The position numbers were made by a program, and so were the translations under genes. A DNA stretch of 64,000 nt from Pichia kudriavzevii (taxonomy: Eukaryota > Ascomycota > Pichiomycetes > Pichiales > Pichiaceae), in the NCBI RefSeq assembly GCF_003054445.1, contig NC_042508.1:744001-808000 (forward strand), written 5' to 3'. Position 1 is the stretch's first letter. Each line of letters starts with the position of its first letter. The notes beneath the pieces are model-generated. The model made no database searches. It had not been told where the DNA came from and saw nothing but the letters and a program-made list of their open reading frames with translations. This document shows, in pieces, positions 23,669 to 60,900 of the stretch.

Positions 23669-23967
23669 TATTGAAGCAACGTTTAATTAATGCTGCATTT
23701 CCTGGGCTCCATCCGGTAAGAGTTTGCACTCATTACTTTCATTAAAAAAGATCTCATTCACGTTCACTTATTCTACGCGAGATTGGCTAGATTTTAACAT
23801 TTTCACCACCTGATAAAATGAAAATAAAAGATTATACAAACACTTTTTACCTGTATTTAGCAATAAATTCAAACAATACAAACTTTTGTGGTCATTACTA
23901 TTGAATGGTACATAGCTATCAACAAATAAAGACAACCTAAAAAAACTTTCAAAAAAATAAATGGAAA

Positions 23968-24039
23968 TGCGAGCTCTGTGGATCGAACACAGGGCCTCCA
24001 GATCTTCAGTCTGGCGCTCTCCCACTGAGCTAAGCCCGC
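23968..24039 (-). tRNA. tRNA-Phe(GAA)
   Basis: The 72-nt minus-strand gene folds into a full cloverleaf. The acceptor GCGGGCT pairs with AGCTCGC (one G-U), and the discriminator base is A. The anticodon loop CTGAAGA in a CCAGA/TCTGG stem gives GAA. The T arm is CTGTG-TTCGATC-CACAG. There is no intron, unlike the S. cerevisiae tRNA-Phe genes. A T7 run about 10 nt downstream can terminate RNA polymerase III. Confidence 0.97.
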
Positions 24040-24320
24040 AATTGATGAAATGTAAGAGATCAGACAAAGGACTATCTCTCTATTTCCTCATCGGGTAATC
24101 ATATAGAAGGTTGAAGAAGATTGTAGAAGGTTAAACAGAAGTTCTAGAAGATAATTAAATCCCTCAAAATGCTATTTTTAAATTAAAGAATTACTATTTA
24201 AACAGAGGACATTCCATATATGTTCTCAGAGAATTAACGTATAAAAATATATAAGATATAAATAAGCAATAATCAGATTCTAAAGTACGGATCACCAGCA
24301 ACACTTTCATTTCATCAATT

Positions 24321-24392
24321 GCGGGCTTAGCTCAGTGGGAGAGCGCCAGACTGAAGATCTGGAGGCCCTGTGTTCGATCCACAGAGCTCGCA
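24321..24392 (+). tRNA. tRNA-Phe(GAA), first half of probable dicistronic unit
   Basis: This gene is identical in sequence to the minus-strand copy at 23968-24039. Only 7 bp (24393-24399, starting with four T) separate it from the tRNA-His that follows on the same strand. Four T followed by C is a weak polymerase III terminator in yeast, so read-through into tRNA-His is likely. Confidence 0.97.
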
Positions 24393-24399
24393 TTTTCTA

Positions 24400-24471
24400 G
24401 CCGTTCTAGTATAGTGGTGAGTACGCATCGTTGTGGCCGATGAGACCCAGGTTCGATTCCTGGGAACGGCA
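24400..24471 (+). tRNA. tRNA-His(GTG)
   Basis: The 72-nt gene folds with acceptor GCCGTTC/GAACGGC and discriminator A; the extra G-1 of mature tRNA-His is not encoded. The anticodon loop TTGTGGC gives GTG, and the T arm is CCAGG-TTCGATT-CCTGG. A T6 run at about 24476 and a T9 run at about 24490 follow and should terminate transcription. Confidence 0.97.
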
Positions 24472-42932: not shown

Positions 42933-43997
42933 CTAGTAAAAAGCTTTTAGCAGTTGTTCTCTTGCTTGGATTGTCATTTCGTCAAATTCATTGCTCTTAC
43001 GCTTTTTATAATTTGTAGGGAGATTCAAATTCAAAGTTTTCGTAGTTTTGTGCCTTGCTTCTCGGCGACATTGAACTGGGGTCGAAAATTTATCTATCTT
43101 GATTTTTTCCCTTGCAAGTAAAGTGTCTAATTTCATTTCGAAGCTGTTTTTCCTAGAGGTTGGTGGTGTAATATCTGGTGTTTTGTTGTCCCATAATTCA
43201 TTCTCCGAAAATTTTTTGCTACCTAATGAATCAACTAGAGTAATTTCATCTTCGATATCTGTACTGTTAATACTACTGTTTGACATAGCAGAAGTAGCCG
43301 ACTTGTGAGGTATTTTTGTCGAACGACTCTGTTCTCTTGATAGGTTTTGTGAGAAAAACCACCCTGCAATTACAATAACCATAATGATAACAAAAGGAGC
43401 CTTGAATCCTCCATAATTAGTAGGTGTTTGCGTGATACGAACAGACTGGTTAGAATCCTTAAAGAATAAAGTATGTATAAGCTTGAATCCAATGAGAGAA
43501 TAAACAAGTGATGGTATATGAACTTTTAATGGCTTGCCTTCTGAGATTGTAATTTTGAAATGAAGATCTGAGTTCCAAAATCGTATGACTATACCTGTGA
43601 ATGCTTCTAGCAAACCCGCCAAGATTACCATAAGATCGGACTTTTCCTTATTATCCACACTAGAATTAATTGAAGGGTAAATCTCCTTCCCATTTCTTAG
43701 CACCAGTGGTTCATCCATGGGGTGCACATTCTGGTTATCCATCTTAACTTCGATTGCAACGTCATTCATGTGCCTTTTGCCTTCATTGCTGGAATCGGAA
43801 AATGAGTCTAGTGTTGGAATCAAGCCAAGATTTTTTTTGATTGGTATTAATTTTGCATTAGGATTTGTATGTGATCGAACTTTACGGGGAGTAGAAACAG
43901 GTGAAGAGGAGGTAATTGGAACCTCTGTTCGACGGATAGGTGATGATTCTCTTGTTCTGATCTTGTTGAACTTATCGAAGATCTTAGGAGCAGCCAT
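42933..43997 (-). CDS. Unknown integral membrane protein with phosphorylatable tails
   Basis: I do not recognise this 354-residue protein. The N-terminal 120 residues are basic and rich in S/T-P sites (ESSPIRRTE, SSPVSTPRKVR), which look like CDK targets. Three hydrophobic segments follow at about 122-140 (LMVILAGLLEAFTGIVIRF), 162-179 (SLVYSLIGFKLIHTLFF) and 201-216 (PFVIIMVIVIAGWFF). The C-terminal 130 residues are again polar and basic, with KKRKSNEFDEM. The pattern would suit a nuclear-envelope or ER protein regulated in the cell cycle. No catalytic motif is visible. Confidence 0.6.
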   Translation of the reverse strand: MAAPKIFDKFNKIRTRESSPIRRTEVPITSSSPVSTPRKVRSHTNPNAKLIPIKKNLGLIPTLDSFSDSSNEGKRHMNDVAIEVKMDNQNVHPMDEPLVLRNGKEIYPSINSSVDNKEKSDLMVILAGLLEAFTGIVIRFWNSDLHFKITISEGKPLKVHIPSLVYSLIGFKLIHTLFFKDSNQSVRITQTPTNYGGFKAPFVIIMVIVIAGWFFSQNLSREQSRSTKIPHKSATSAMSNSSINSTDIEDEITLVDSLGSKKFSENELWDNKTPDITPPTSRKNSFEMKLDTLLAREKIKIDKFSTPVQCRREARHKTTKTLNLNLPTNYKKRKSNEFDEMTIQAREQLLKAFY

Positions 43998-47270: not shown

Positions 47271-48255
47271 TTAGTAACCTAAAGCAGCTAATTTTTGAGA
47301 AGCTTCGGATTCTGCAACAGATGCCTTTGCAGCAGTCAACTTCTTTGCAGCAACTAACTTCTTTGCGTAGTATTCTGCTGCTCTTGCCTTTCTCTTGTCT
47401 TCTAAAGTAGAGACAATAGAATCGTATTTCCAACCAACAGAAGCAGATAACTTACCAAGAGTGGTGTATTTTCTACCTGGCTTTAATCTTAAAACTCTTA
47501 AAGCTTGAGGAACAACAATTCTCTTCTTCTTGTCGTATGGTGGTGGGACACCTTCGAAGACCTTTAATCTTTCTAAAGCTGCTGCACCTCTAGCAGTCTT
47601 GTGTGGAATCATACCTCTAACAGCCTTATAGAAGATTCTGGATGGAGCTCTGAAATGGAATTGACCTCTTCTGTGGTTGAAGTTGGTGGACTTTCTCAAG
47701 TAGTCGTGGTACTTTAATTTGTTTCTGAAAAATTCACCAGAGACGTTCATTTCTTCACATCTGACAACAACAATCTTTTGACCATTTAAAAGTTCCTTAG
47801 CAACAATAGATGCTAATCTACCTAATAAATGACCCTTACCTATAACATTAAATAAACAATATCATGTTAGTATTTATTCCACTGTGAAAAATCCTCGTGG
47901 TAATTTAAGAAAGATTATTGCATTCTGAAGAGTACTCATGTACTCAATAATGGCATTTTTTTGTTTACTTCAACCATTCTAGATGGAATAGCCCGTTAAA
48001 ACTCATAAAGTGATAGACTAATCTACTTTTACTAGCACAGTACCACATTCATAAATGGTACTCCATGTTTGAATTGTGCTTCAACTTTGGAAAGCCAAAT
48101 CGATGGCCTAGTTTTATGGTTTCACTTGTTTTTCCATTTCTTTCTCTTTCTCTTTTTCTATTTCTTTTGTTTCTTTGAAGTCTCTTAAATCACGACAATT
48201 TAATAATAGAATCATACATACCGTCAACGACAACAACTGGTTGGAATTCGCTCAT
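47271..48255 (-). CDS. RPL16: Ribosomal protein uL13 (Rpl16), two exons
   Basis: Exon 1 is 48255-48222 (34 nt, [11 protein letters not shown] plus one base) and exon 2 is 47839-47271. The split codon joins to GGT, giving ...[16 protein letters not shown], the start of uL13. The product is 200 residues, against 199 in S. cerevisiae, and continues with [39 protein letters not shown] and [18 protein letters not shown] to the C-terminal KLAALGY. It is a large-subunit ribosomal protein. A reading frame confined to exon 2 would start at an internal Met and lose the first 40 or so residues. Codon use is strongly biased. Confidence 0.95.
47840..48221 (-). other. RPL16: Spliceosomal intron of RPL16
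   Basis: The 382-nt intron has the donor GTATGT at 48221, an exact TACTAAC branch site at 47872-47866, and an acceptor TATAG ending at 47840, about 27 nt after the branch. Long 5'-proximal introns like this are usual in yeast RP genes. Confidence 0.93.
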
Positions 48256-48762: not shown

Positions 48763-49608
48763 TTATTTTGCATTTAAAAACACATCAATGTCATCATAAA
48801 TGGAATCTATCTGCACATTGTCTCCATCTATGAGGATCTGGTTGTCCATCATATTCCGTAAAAGGCTGCTTACACGATGTAAACCAATCGACTGTCGAGG
48901 TTTGCGTTGTGTAATCTATATATATATATATGTATGGATTGGATAATGGCAATGTTAGTATTTGGAAAGACACAATGTAAAACAGTAATGCATACATACA
49001 ATAACAGTTGTTAAATGGTTCTGGGATATATCTCTGATATGTTTGATGATTTCAATCATTATTCGACCAGCTGTCAGTTGGAGGCACAATGTTAGTACAC
49101 ATATTCGGATTCCCTAATTGTCCATGGCTATTGTGTTACCTACACTTTCTCTGGTCTTCAAACATGGAGACATTAAATGCCTCATCCAAATCTTCAAGTA
49201 TAATACACTGAGGAATATATTTGAGTTGCTTCAGAGTAATCAGCATTTGAGATAGCGATAGAGTTTGAGCTACTTGAATATTCGACATTAAGGAATCATC
49301 TACTGTCATTTCCTCGCGTAATGTCTTGAGACGCTCGACATCAAACAGTATCGATGAAAGGTGTACGACTTTATAAGAGGGCTTTTCTCGTAGCTCTTTC
49401 AAATAGTATCTCATTGTATACTAAGATAGTTTGTATTTGTGTGTGTGTCAGTGTAAGTGTTAGTATACTTGTTTTCCTCTTTCCCCTAGAGTTGGTGGTG
49501 TGTTTTGTTGGAACGTACATTAGATGCATAATGCGTGACACCGCCATGATGGTTGTATTCTACCAATGAGACATGGCCGTTGATCCTGCTGTGTGGGTCA
49601 TGGGACAT
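48763..49608 (-). CDS. Four-exon gene; P-loop-less RecA/Rad51-paralogue-like protein (Shu-complex type?)
   Basis: I assemble four minus-strand exons: 49608-49519, 49420-49144, 49070-49000 and 48915-48763. The coding length is 591 nt (196 residues plus TAA), and all phases agree. The ATG at 49608 is the first after an in-frame TAG. The protein reads like a small RecA core. A strand and loop where a P-loop should be (HVSLVEYNHHGGVTHY, without GxxxxGKT) is followed by YKVVHLSSILFDVERL (RecA: VxYIDTExxFxxxRL). A Walker-B-like strand CIILEDLDEAF and a final strand HLTTVIITQRKP, in the place of the RecA TNQ strand, come next. Psy3, Csm2, SWSAP1 and some Rad51 paralogues share this small size and lost or atypical P-loop, and act in recombinational repair. 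Orthology is inference; the exon structure is strongly supported by three TACTAAC sites. Confidence 0.72.
48916..48999 (-). other. Intron 3 of the RecA-like gene
   Basis: 84 nt; donor GTATGT at 48999, exact TACTAAC at 48960-48954, acceptor TATAG ending at 48916 after a TA-rich stretch. Confidence 0.85.
49071..49143 (-). other. Intron 2 of the RecA-like gene
   Basis: 73 nt; donor GTAGGT at 49143 (one base off GTATGT), exact TACTAAC at 49097-49091, acceptor GACAG ending at 49071. It splits a Ser codon in phase 1. Confidence 0.8.
49421..49518 (-). other. Intron 1 of the RecA-like gene
   Basis: 98 nt; donor GTACGT at 49518, exact TACTAAC at 49465-49459, acceptor CTTAG ending at 49421. The junction is in phase 0. 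Confidence 0.8.
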
Positions 49609-50440: not shown

Positions 50441-52177
50441 ATGTTACTCAGATCACTAAACTCTTCTGCTCGTTGTGTCAAACAAACAACCAGAACAAAG
50501 GTTAGGTATCTCAGCCACGTCAGTGGTGCAAGCATGGCGAAACCTACATTGAAGAACAACTCGAGAGAATCCAACAAATCCAGAAACTATCTAATTGCTG
50601 CTGTGACAGCATTGGCTGTATCAACCTCAATTGGAGTTGCCGTACATGTGAAGGACCCCTTGTATAACGATGCTACCGGCAGTGATTCTCCGAGAAGTAT
50701 ATCTGTTGACGAGTTTGTCAAGCATAATTCACAAAACGACTGTTGGATTGCAATCAATGGCAAGGTTTATGATTTCACTGATTTTATTCCAAACCATCCA
50801 GGTGGGGTACCTCCATTAGTTAATCATGCTGGTTATGATGGTACTAAACTTTATGAGAAATTGCACCCAAAAGGTACAATTGAGAAATTCTTGCCAAAGG
50901 ATAAGTTTCTGGGTGTGTTAGATGGTGAAGCGCCAAAATTGGAAGCAGACTATTTGGTGGACGATGATGAACAAGAGAGACTGGATTATTTGAACAACTT
51001 ACCTCCTTTGTCATCTATTCAGAATGTTTATGATTTCGAATACTTGGCCAAGAAGATTTTACCTAAAGATGCCTGGGCATATTATTCTTGTGGTGCCGAT
51101 GATGAAATCACAATGAGAGAAAACCACTATGCTTATCAAAGAGTTTATTTCAGACCAAGAATTTGTGTTGATGTCAAGGAAGTTGATACTTCTTATGAAA
51201 TGTTAGGCACTAAAACCTCTGTTCCTTTTTATGTATCTGCCACCGCTTTGGCTAAATTAGGCCATCCTGATGGTGAATGCTCAATTGCTAGAGGCGCTGG
51301 TAAGGAAGGTGTCGTTCAAATGATTTCGACCCTTTCCTCAATGTCATTAGATGAAATTGCCGCTGCTAGAATTCCAGGTGCAACCCAATGGTTCCAATTA
51401 TACATTAATGAGGATAGAAATGTCGCTAAAGGTCTGGTCAAACATGCAGAAGACTTGGGTATGAAGGCTATCTTTATAACTGTTGATGCTCCTTCTCTAG
51501 GTAACAGAGAAAAGGATAAAAGATTAAAGTTTGTTAATGACACCGATGTCGATTTGGGTGATTCCGCAGATCGAAACAGTGGTGCTTCAAAGGCACTATC
51601 TTCGTTCATTGATGCTTCTGTCTCTTGGAATGACGTCAAAGCGGTCAAGTCGTGGACTAAATTGCCTGTCTTAGTTAAAGGTGTTCAAACAGTTGAAGAC
51701 GTTATTGAAGCTTACGATGCTGGTTGTCAAGGTGTTGTTTTGTCAAACCACGGTGGTAGGCAACTAGATACTGCTCCTCCTCCAATCGAATTATTAGCTG
51801 AAACTGTTCCAACTTTGAAGAGATTGGGTAAATTAAGACCAGATTTTGAAATTTTAATTGACGGTGGTGTCAAAAGAGGTACCGATATTTTGAAAGCAGT
51901 CGCAATCGGTGGCCAAGATGTCAGAGTTTCAGTTGGTATGGGTAGACCTTTCTTATATGCCAACTCTTGCTATGGTGAAGCAGGTGTTAGAAAATTAATT
52001 CAAAATCTAAAGGATGAATTAGAAATGGATATGAGATTGTTGGGTGTCACTAAAATGGACCAGCTATCTTCGAAACATGTCGATACTAAACGTTTGATTG
52101 GTAGAGATGCGATCAACTATTTGTATGATAATGTATACAGCCCAATCGAAACCGTTAAATTCAACAATGAAGATTGA
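50441..52177 (+). CDS. CYB2: L-lactate dehydrogenase (cytochrome b2)
   Basis: The ATG at 50441 gives 578 residues; the in-frame TTG 9 bp upstream is not used. A basic mitochondrial presequence leads to a hydrophobic sorting segment (YLIAAVTALAVSTSIGVAV, about residues 47-65), as in bipartite intermembrane-space signals. A cytochrome b5 domain follows (DCWIAINGKVYDFTDF, then the heme motif HPGG). The FMN domain has LGHPDGE, TVDAPSLGNREKD, VLSNHGGRQLDTAP with the catalytic His, and a GGVKRGTDILKA phosphate-binding block. It oxidises L-lactate to pyruvate and passes electrons to cytochrome c. The S. cerevisiae protein is 591 residues. It is the divergent neighbour of the RecA-like gene. Confidence 0.95.
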   Translation: MLLRSLNSSARCVKQTTRTKVRYLSHVSGASMAKPTLKNNSRESNKSRNYLIAAVTALAVSTSIGVAVHVKDPLYNDATGSDSPRSISVDEFVKHNSQNDCWIAINGKVYDFTDFIPNHPGGVPPLVNHAGYDGTKLYEKLHPKGTIEKFLPKDKFLGVLDGEAPKLEADYLVDDDEQERLDYLNNLPPLSSIQNVYDFEYLAKKILPKDAWAYYSCGADDEITMRENHYAYQRVYFRPRICVDVKEVDTSYEMLGTKTSVPFYVSATALAKLGHPDGECSIARGAGKEGVVQMISTLSSMSLDEIAAARIPGATQWFQLYINEDRNVAKGLVKHAEDLGMKAIFITVDAPSLGNREKDKRLKFVNDTDVDLGDSADRNSGASKALSSFIDASVSWNDVKAVKSWTKLPVLVKGVQTVEDVIEAYDAGCQGVVLSNHGGRQLDTAPPPIELLAETVPTLKRLGKLRPDFEILIDGGVKRGTDILKAVAIGGQDVRVSVGMGRPFLYANSCYGEAGVRKLIQNLKDELEMDMRLLGVTKMDQLSSKHVDTKRLIGRDAINYLYDNVYSPIETVKFNNED

Positions 52178-57966: not shown

Positions 57967-60900
57967 ATGTCTTTTCATAATCCAATTTCCCCATCTTTTG
58001 AAAAACTTGGTACAAACCTTGTTACCTTAGAAACCCAAGAAGGTATCGCAATTCAAGGTTATTCTTTTGGTGCTAATGTGCCAGCCGCTGGTGAATTAGT
58101 CTTCCAAACCGGTATGGTTGGTTACCCAGAATCAATCACTGATCCTTCTTACGAAGGTCAAATCCTAGTCATTACTTACCCTCTTGTTGGTAATTATGGT
58201 GTCCCAGATAGAAAATTAATGGACGATGTTGTTAAATCTCTTCCAAAATATTTTGAATCAAATAAAATACATGTCGCAGGTTTAGTTGTTGCTCATTATA
58301 CCGAAGAATATTCTCATTACTTGGCAACTTCCTCTTTAGGTTCTTGGTTAAAGGAACAGGGTATTCCAGCCATTTATGGTGTTGATACCAGATCTCTAAC
58401 TAAGAGATTAAGAGAAAAAGGTTCTACCTTAGGTAGATTCTGTTTAAAGAAGGAATCTATTGATGTTGATGCAGCCCTCAGTGATGCTGATTGGAAAAAG
58501 AATTTTGAAATTCCGGAATGGGTCAATCCAAACACTCAGAACCTGGTGGCAAAAGTTTCTACTAAAGAACCGGTTATATATGAGCCTCCAAAAGAATTGG
58601 CTAAATTAGGTCCAGATGGTAAGGTTATCAGAATTGTTGCCGTTGATGTGGGTATGAAGTACAACCAAATTAGATGTTTTGTCAACAGAGGTGTTTCCTT
58701 AAAGGTCGTTCCTTGGAACTACGATTTCACTAAGGAAGAATATGATGGTTTGTTCATCTCTAACGGTCCAGGTGATCCTTCCGTTATGACTGATGTTGTT
58801 GAGAAATTGAAGGTTTCCTTAGAAGAAGCAAAAACACCAATCTTTGGTATTTGTCTAGGTCACCAATTGATGGCAAGAGCTTCTGGTGCTAGTACCTTAA
58901 AGCTTAAATTTGGTAACAGAGGTCACAATATTCCCTGTACTTCCACTGTTTCAGGTAGATGTTATATTACCTCACAAAATCACGGTTATGCTGTTGATGC
59001 TAATACCTTACAATCTGGATGGAAAGAGCTATTTGTGAATTCTAATGATGGTTCAAATGAAGGTATTTACAATACTGAAAAGCCTTTCTTCTCTGTTCAA
59101 TTTCATCCTGAATCTACACCAGGTCCAAGGGACACTGAGTTCTTATTTGACACATTTATTCAAGCCGTTATTGACTTTAAGAAGTCGAAGATTTTGAGAG
59201 CAGTTGAGTTTCCAGGTGGATTGAAGGAAGAAAATGAAAAATTGCATCCTAGATTGAAGCCTAAGAAAGTCTTGGTTCTAGGTTCTGGTGGTCTCTCTAT
59301 TGGTCAAGCTGGTGAATTCGATTATTCTGGCTCTCAAGCTATCAAAGCTTTAAAAGAAGAAGGCATCTACACTATCTTGGTTAATCCAAATATTGCTACC
59401 ATTCAAACTTCTAAAGGTCTAGCTGATAAGGTTTATTTCTTACCAGTTACACCTGAGTTCGTCAGAAAGATCATCAAACAAGAAAGACCAGATGCCATTT
59501 ACTGTACCTTTGGTGGTCAAACCGCTTTGAACGTCGGTATTAAATTAAAGGATGAGTTTGAATCCTTGGGTGTTAAAGTTTTAGGTACCCCAATCGATAC
59601 CGTCATCACAACTGAAGATAGAGAGTTATTCGCTAGAGCGATGGACGAGATCAATGAAAAGTGTGCAAAGTCTGAAACTGCTTCCAATATTGATGAAGCT
59701 TTAGCTGCAGTTGAAAAGATTGGTTTCCCTGTTATTGTTAGAGCTGCTTATGCACTAGGTGGTCTAGGTTCTGGTTTTGCAGATAACAAGGAGGAATTAA
59801 TTGAGCTTTGTAATAAGGCTTTTGCTGCTTCTCCTCAAGTTTTAGTTGAAAAATCTATGAAGGGCTGGAAAGAAGTTGAGTATGAAGTTGTTCGTGATGC
59901 TTACGACAATTGTATTACCGTTTGTAATATGGAGAATTTCGATCCTCTTGGTATTCACACTGGTGATTCCATTGTTGTTGCGCCATCCCAAACTTTGTCT
60001 GATGAAGATTACAACATGTTAAGAACCACTGCTGTGAACGTTATTAGACACTTGGGTGTTGTTGGTGAATGTAACATTCAGTATGCCCTTAACCCACATT
60101 CCAAAGAATACTGTATTATTGAAGTCAATGCAAGATTATCTAGATCTTCCGCTTTAGCATCAAAGGCCACAGGATACCCACTAGCTTATACTGCAGCAAA
60201 ATTGGGTTTGAATATTCCTTTAAATGAAATCAAGAATTCTGTCACTAAAGTCACATGTGCATGTTTTGAACCATCTCTAGACTACTGTGTAGTTAAGATT
60301 CCAAGGTGGGATTTGAAGAAGTTCACCAGAGTCTCCCCATTGTTATCTTCCTCTATGAAGTCCGTTGGTGAAGTTATGTCCATTGGTAGAACATTTGAAG
60401 AAGCTATCCAAAAAGCAATCAGATCAACCGATTACCAAAACTTAGGTTTTAACGCTACCGAAGCTTTAATGAGTATTGATATTGACTCTGAGTTACAAAC
60501 ACCTTCCGACCAAAGATTATTTGCTATTGCTAACGCCATGTCTACTGGTTATGACGTTGAAAAGATTCACAGAATGACCAATATCGATAGATGGTTCTTA
60601 AACAAATTGTATGGCCTAATCAAGTTTGGTGATTACATTGCTTCTTTTGGCACTAAGGAACAGTTGCCTATCAAGGTTTTAAAAGAAGCCAAGCAATTAG
60701 GCTTTGAAGATAGACAGATTGCCAAGTTCTTGAACTCTAACGAAGTTGCAATTAGAAGATTAAGAAAGGATGCAGGTATTATCCCAGTTGTCAAACAAAT
60801 TGATACCGTTGCAGCAGAATTCCCAGCATTTACCAACTATTTGTACATTACCTACAACGGTCAAGATTCGGATGTTGATTTCAACGATCATGGTGTTATG

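Follow-up and report, generated by a model that had tools for sequence, protein, structure and literature searches.

Does an 846-bp region of the Pichia kudriavzevii genome, of which an annotation based on open reading frames (ORFs) alone keeps 92 codons, hold a spliced gene, and what is its product? The region lies in a stretch of 64,000 nucleotides (assembly GCF_003054445.1, contig NC_042508.1, positions 744,001 to 808,000 of the forward strand), hereafter the window, to which all coordinates without a contig prefix refer. A reading of the letters alone (the sequence-only reading) had proposed a hidden four-exon gene for a RecA-like protein without a P-loop, perhaps a subunit of the Shu complex. 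Here we report that the structure of the four-exon gene is virtually certain, that its product is probably a divergent Rad51 paralog without the ATP-binding P-loop, and that, judged by gene order, it could well correspond to the Csm2 subunit of the Shu complex.

The gene runs from 49608 to 48763 on the minus strand and comprises four exons (90, 277, 71 and 153 nt) and three introns of phases 0, 1 and 0, with a computed joined frame of 196 residues:

49519..49608, minus strand: exon 1, 30 codons from the ATG, containing SLVEY and the degenerate loop NHHGGVTHYAS
49421..49518, minus strand: intron 1, 98 nt, donor GTACGT at 49518, TACTAAC at 49465-49459, acceptor TAG
49144..49420, minus strand: exon 2, 277 nt, with KVVHLSSIL, the FDVERL segment and CIILEDLDE (Walker B-like place)
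49071..49143, minus strand: intron 2, 73 nt, donor GTAGGT at 49143, TACTAAC at 49097-49091, acceptor CAG
49000..49070, minus strand: exon 3, 71 nt, a predicted helix and the beginning of the TVIITQ strand
48916..48999, minus strand: intron 3, 84 nt, donor GTATGT at 48999, TACTAAC at 48960-48954, acceptor TAG
48763..48915, minus strand: exon 4 including the stop codon, with RKPR (residues 150-153) right after TVIITQ, and the C-terminal part
49136..49414, minus strand: 92-codon ORF, exon 2 read on into intron 2, which an ORF-only annotation keeps

Every intron thus has a GTANGT donor and an exact TACTAAC, and uses the first AG thereafter as acceptor, at 39, 21 and 39 nt past the respective TACTAAC. 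All signals named in the sequence-only reading were found at their places, and its agreement of phases over the four exons and its 196-residue product were reproduced with the first AG per branch site, which keeps the frames intact across the joins. Where it had noted one in-frame stop ahead of the ATG, there are four within the preceding 92 bases, the closest eight codons upstream. The ORF fragment that it foresaw is present as well and has a near-identical deposited counterpart (P0002; two members, 30 contigs).

Single TACTAAC boxes mean little, because the window contains 12 of them against a shuffle mean of 6.75, and at least 12 were reached in 4 of 100 shuffles. One 512-bp span on a single strand contains three of the 12, and all three have a donor and an AG close by. 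Both strands of the window were scanned blindly for a donor (GTANGT, GTATGA or GTATAT), TACTAAC, the first AG and an open frame, and the only models of more than 100 residues were the four-exon gene, with its sub-models, and RPL16, the positive control of the scan. No model with at least two introns arose when the window was dinucleotide-shuffled 300 times; local 1.1-kb shuffles gave at least two introns in 4 of 20,000 cases and three introns in none of the 20,000. The joined frame had the highest codon score among the six frames of the coding sequence and among the three same-strand frames of each exon, a lead that it owes partly to stops in the other frames, which were penalised. Its codon bias is weak, at -0.084 bits/codon against a shuffle mean of -0.163 (standard deviation 0.050); the 23 training ORFs of the window have a mean of 0.150 and a minimum of 0.015 bits/codon. 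The published P. kudriavzevii annotation has 205 introns in 5140 genes, with introns in 4% of the genes (PMC6053246), so that a gene with three introns is out of the ordinary.

Another TACTAAC, at 44005-43999 on the minus strand, stops just ahead of the ATG of a 354-residue ORF (43997..42933). This ORF is without a Pfam match at an E-value of 1e-5, and the blind splice scan listed no model there; the box may belong to an intron that follows an upstream exon, or may be accidental.

Contrary to what had been supposed, the gene is neither hidden nor overlooked, although its product is unnamed. NCBI holds a 196-residue protein that is identical to it at 194 of 196 positions (P0001, 'unnamed protein product [Pichia kudriavzevii]'); the two differences are S7N and M89I, and the P0001 cluster comprises four sequences. 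The gene model has therefore already been deposited, and no family or function is attached to it in the records examined. Among about 5.8 billion proteins, the search with the spliced product returned one protein from 65 candidates (P0001) and that with the exon 2 ORF one from two candidates (the fragment P0002); neither reached a relative from another species. In viral contigs, 10 stretches fitted a pattern and none was confirmed as a homolog. The genome (10.79 Mb, five contigs) contains no second copy: P0001 matches only its own exons there, in four places.

The assignment to the Rad51 paralogs starts from the order of segments in the product. The Walker A motif GxxxxGK[ST] of ATP-binding RecA and Rad51 proteins is absent from the 196 residues, and in this respect the sequence-only reading was right. 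If the fold is RecA-like, NHHGGVTHYAS in exon 1 would occupy the position of the P-loop, and RKPR, directly after TVIITQ, would occupy that of a DNA-binding loop. The fold itself is plausible; the structure models have low confidence.

The second line of evidence is gene order, for which RPL16 served as syntenic anchor:

47271..48255, minus strand: RPL16 (gene name by reading), Ribosomal_L13 match, exons 48255-48222 and 47839-47271
50441..52177, plus strand: divergent neighbour with cytochrome b5 and FMN dehydrogenase domains, CYB2-type by reading

RPL16 has one TACTAAC intron and a joined product of 200 residues, a ribosomal L13-type protein. The four-exon gene lies directly upstream of it on the same strand, with 507 bp between its end and the RPL16 start codon, and 832 bp separate its ATG from that of the CYB2-type neighbour. 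We take CSM2 of Saccharomyces cerevisiae (family PF16834; PDB 3vu9 chain B) to be locus YIL132C, a presumed name. Adjacent numbers on the same arm, both for the Crick strand, place YIL132C directly upstream of YIL133C, and because the locus names are adjacent, CSM2 would stand beside RPL16A in the order and orientation found here. Half of this line is presumed; the window side and the RPL16A name were read, the latter as YIL133C in PMC2675909. The literature consulted, PMC7642924 included, gave nothing that links CSM2 to RPL16A or confirms the CSM2 locus name.

The main reason for preferring CSM2 is that two lines, each weak and obtained separately, converge on it: the Shu-type reading of the sequence, in which RPL16 was not mentioned, and the RPL16 gene order. 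The proposal of a Shu-complex subunit stands in part: gene order, with the presumed CSM2 locus name, speaks for it, and the Csm2 and Psy3 profiles do not match. The product resembles Csm2 in length (196 versus 213 residues) and in its tandem position upstream of RPL16, if the presumed CSM2 locus name is right. It differs in that sequence similarity is undetectable, that PF16834 is unmatched and that its gene has three introns, whereas CSM2 of S. cerevisiae is not known to have an intron. Both proteins have basic residues past a core strand, RKPR in the product and K189-R192 in Csm2, the latter according to PMC6683157. XRCC2 and other human Rad51 paralogs are also among the closest known systems.

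The S. cerevisiae proteins Shu1, Psy3 and Csm2 belong to the Rad51 paralogues (PMC6957567). Double-flap DNA that contains abasic-site analogues is bound by Csm2-Psy3, which needs lysines and arginines in predicted loops for this and has been proposed to favour error-free template switching mediated by Rad51 (PMC6683157). For the product, fold, partners, DNA contact and pathway are inferred. By analogy with the S. cerevisiae complex, it would not hydrolyse ATP, would pair with a second Rad51 paralog, would contact DNA at a damaged fork through the basic RKPR loop that follows core strand four, and would aid the formation of the Rad51 filament and lesion bypass without errors.

The genome has ORFs read as RAD51, DMC1 and RAD57. 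PF06745 gave 15 matches in it, two of which are RAD51 and DMC1 and one of which overlaps the RAD57 ORF; RAD55 was not seen among the matches examined, and one further ORF resembles ATP synthase beta. In the ORF read as DMC1 (C2:2480707-2484435), a similar intron (GTATGT, TACTAAC, TTAG) was recognised by eye after the first exon, and the main ORF alone starts downstream of it.

Several results weigh against the Rad51 paralog and CSM2 assignments. The sequence-only reading had asked for a profile search; in it, the product stayed below the cut-off of every family in Pfam and NCBIfam. The best sub-threshold Pfam matches are Peroxin-22 (E 0.019-0.022) and AAA (E 0.12), and the one NCBIfam match is far below its cut-off. 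The Csm2 profile PF16834 recognises S. cerevisiae Csm2 (3.2e-63) and the Psy3 profile PF16836 recognises P0003, P0009 and P0010; neither recognises P0001. Queries for Shu2, SWIM, Csm2 and Psy3 found nothing in the genome; such empty searches show little because these proteins are so divergent, and of the four queries SWIM alone gave matches in control genomes. The name YIL132C, which we assume for CSM2, being unconfirmed, counts on the same side.

By hhalign, P0001 did not score above 28 window ORFs used as controls (at least one of them antisense) with Psy3, Rad51/Dmc1, Rad51/Dmc1/Rad57, Rad57 or Csm2. In unfiltered HMMER tests against 2000 shuffles, the scores were 0.3 bits for Psy3 (equalled in 582 shuffles), -2.5 for Rad51/Dmc1 (1121), -0.1 for Rad51/Dmc1/Rad57 (353), -1.9 for Rad57 (970) and -0.6 for Csm2 (930). 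AAA surpassed all of these profiles with 5.3 bits (14 of 2000), the strongest single result; its profile was built from 18 of 20 AAA loci of the same genome, two having been removed by a frame and motif filter. A global test (200 shuffles, 120/121 decoy fragments) gave z-scores of 0.62 and 0.71 with Csm2, which is nothing, and of -0.03 with eight Psy3 sequences, 1.70 with two and 1.72 with three. The best values, 1.64 to 1.72 against divergent Psy3, were matched by 12-14 of 200 shuffles and 3-5 of 120 real decoys. For P0001 against Rad51/Dmc1, z was 1.14 (23 of 200 shuffles as good) and 1.61 (17 of 200); Rad51/Dmc1 with Rad57 gave -0.18 and AAA -0.27, a null result.

The structure models add to these objections. 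Both have low confidence, with predicted local distance difference test (pLDDT) values of 41.2 and 44.5, and Foldseek returned no match with an E-value below 0.001 for either. The model guided by Psy3 sequences, and biased by them, had Cdc48, an AAA protein, in Foldseek rows 1-3. On structural re-ranking it was the only one to indicate Rad51 paralogs, with the Shu1 chain of 6dex at rank 2 and AAA chains from rank 10 on, while the unguided model matches unrelated folds. Of the RecA core proposed earlier, the missing P-loop stands and the fold is no more than plausible.

The null profile tests are nevertheless not evidence against a Rad51 paralog, because known Psy3 and Csm2 fail the same tests: as positive controls against Rad51/Dmc1 in the global test they reached z-scores of 0.09 to 0.85 (Rad57, 18), and against each other -0.61 to 0.85. 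Sequence tests of this type cannot see Shu-type Rad51 paralogs. The profile tests do not permit assignment of the product to the Csm2 or the Psy3 family, and it stands as a candidate that may function in a similar way.

Three other identities were weighed. There is a small but appreciable chance that the product is a rapidly evolving protein, specific to its lineage, with a different fold; the RecA-like order would then be no more than strands and helices alternating in the ordinary way. This would suit the finding of only P0001 and the fragment P0002 in the protein searches, and the unrelated folds matched by the unguided model. The adjacency to RPL16, given the presumed CSM2 locus name, and the arrangement of the segments (P-loop missing, a Walker B-like strand, basic residues behind a further strand) fit a Rad51 paralog instead.

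We consider it unlikely that the product has no relation to Rad51 and is a degenerate AAA-type domain or another small protein of the P-loop fold, with Walker B-like and sensor 1-like strands and no P-loop. AAA (PF00004) is the sole fold family with a sub-threshold Pfam match across the core (residues 83/84-152, the Walker B to sensor 1 stretch); the profile from the same genome and the Cdc48 rows of the guided model point the same way. Against it, the Pfam match has 13.2-13.3 bits with a cut-off of 21.2, the first third of the domain is unmatched, the global test is null and AAA chains come late in the re-ranking. Peroxin-22 (PF12827), which has the lowest Pfam E-value, was rejected: its match is confined to 33 C-terminal residues with 15-15.2 bits against a cut-off of 26, and another locus of the genome passes instead (C1:1895162, 26.9 bits).

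It is more unlikely still that the gene is PSY3 or SHU1 rather than CSM2, and its position beside RPL16 a coincidence. The best, if weak, sequence likeness is to divergent Psy3 (PF16836; PDB 3vu9 chain A and 5xyn), a protein of similar size, as in the short stretch HVSLVEYN versus HVHLVEHN of P0009 and in DPHN-RINGHVSLVEYN versus DPINDKPNRHVHLVEHN, also of P0009; the global values above and the rank of the Shu1 chain agree with this. These values are within chance, however: the local score with P0009 was matched by 44 of 400 shuffles, the eight-sequence Psy3 profile scored at the shuffle level and PF16836 is unmatched. In the alignment, S. cerevisiae Psy3 is longer ahead of its C-terminal strand, and gene order points to CSM2. 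Accidental splice signals around the 92-codon ORF, with no translated four-exon gene, would suit the weak codon bias of a spliced gene known here from DNA alone, and are scarcely credible given that no shuffle of window or locality yielded three introns and that the product, with two substitutions, has been deposited from another contig.

Three further observations concern the surroundings of the gene. The segment 48400-48560, between the four-exon gene and RPL16, has 64% G+C against 37% in the window. TOM7, which we take to be a neighbour of RPL16B, was searched for with a presumed TOM7 sequence and was not found near RPL16; its one match (E 5.4) is at 58113. At 23967-24471 there are two tRNA-Phe genes in opposite orientations, the second followed at once by tRNA-His.

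If the gene structure alone holds, this is an ordinary though intron-rich gene. It is possible, and on the whole somewhat doubtful, that P. kudriavzevii keeps a Shu complex whose CSM2, with its three introns, has diverged beyond recognition by profiles and has remained next to RPL16 since its lineage separated from that of Saccharomyces. In that case, profile searches and an annotation limited to ORFs would give the impression that this branch of yeasts lacks the complex. Should the gene be CSM2, gene order combined with splice-aware gene prediction can uncover Shu subunits that profiles miss, and any inferred absence of the complex from yeasts outside the Saccharomyces branch would need rechecking; the gene would then be a candidate for the tolerance of DNA damage by P. 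kudriavzevii during replication.
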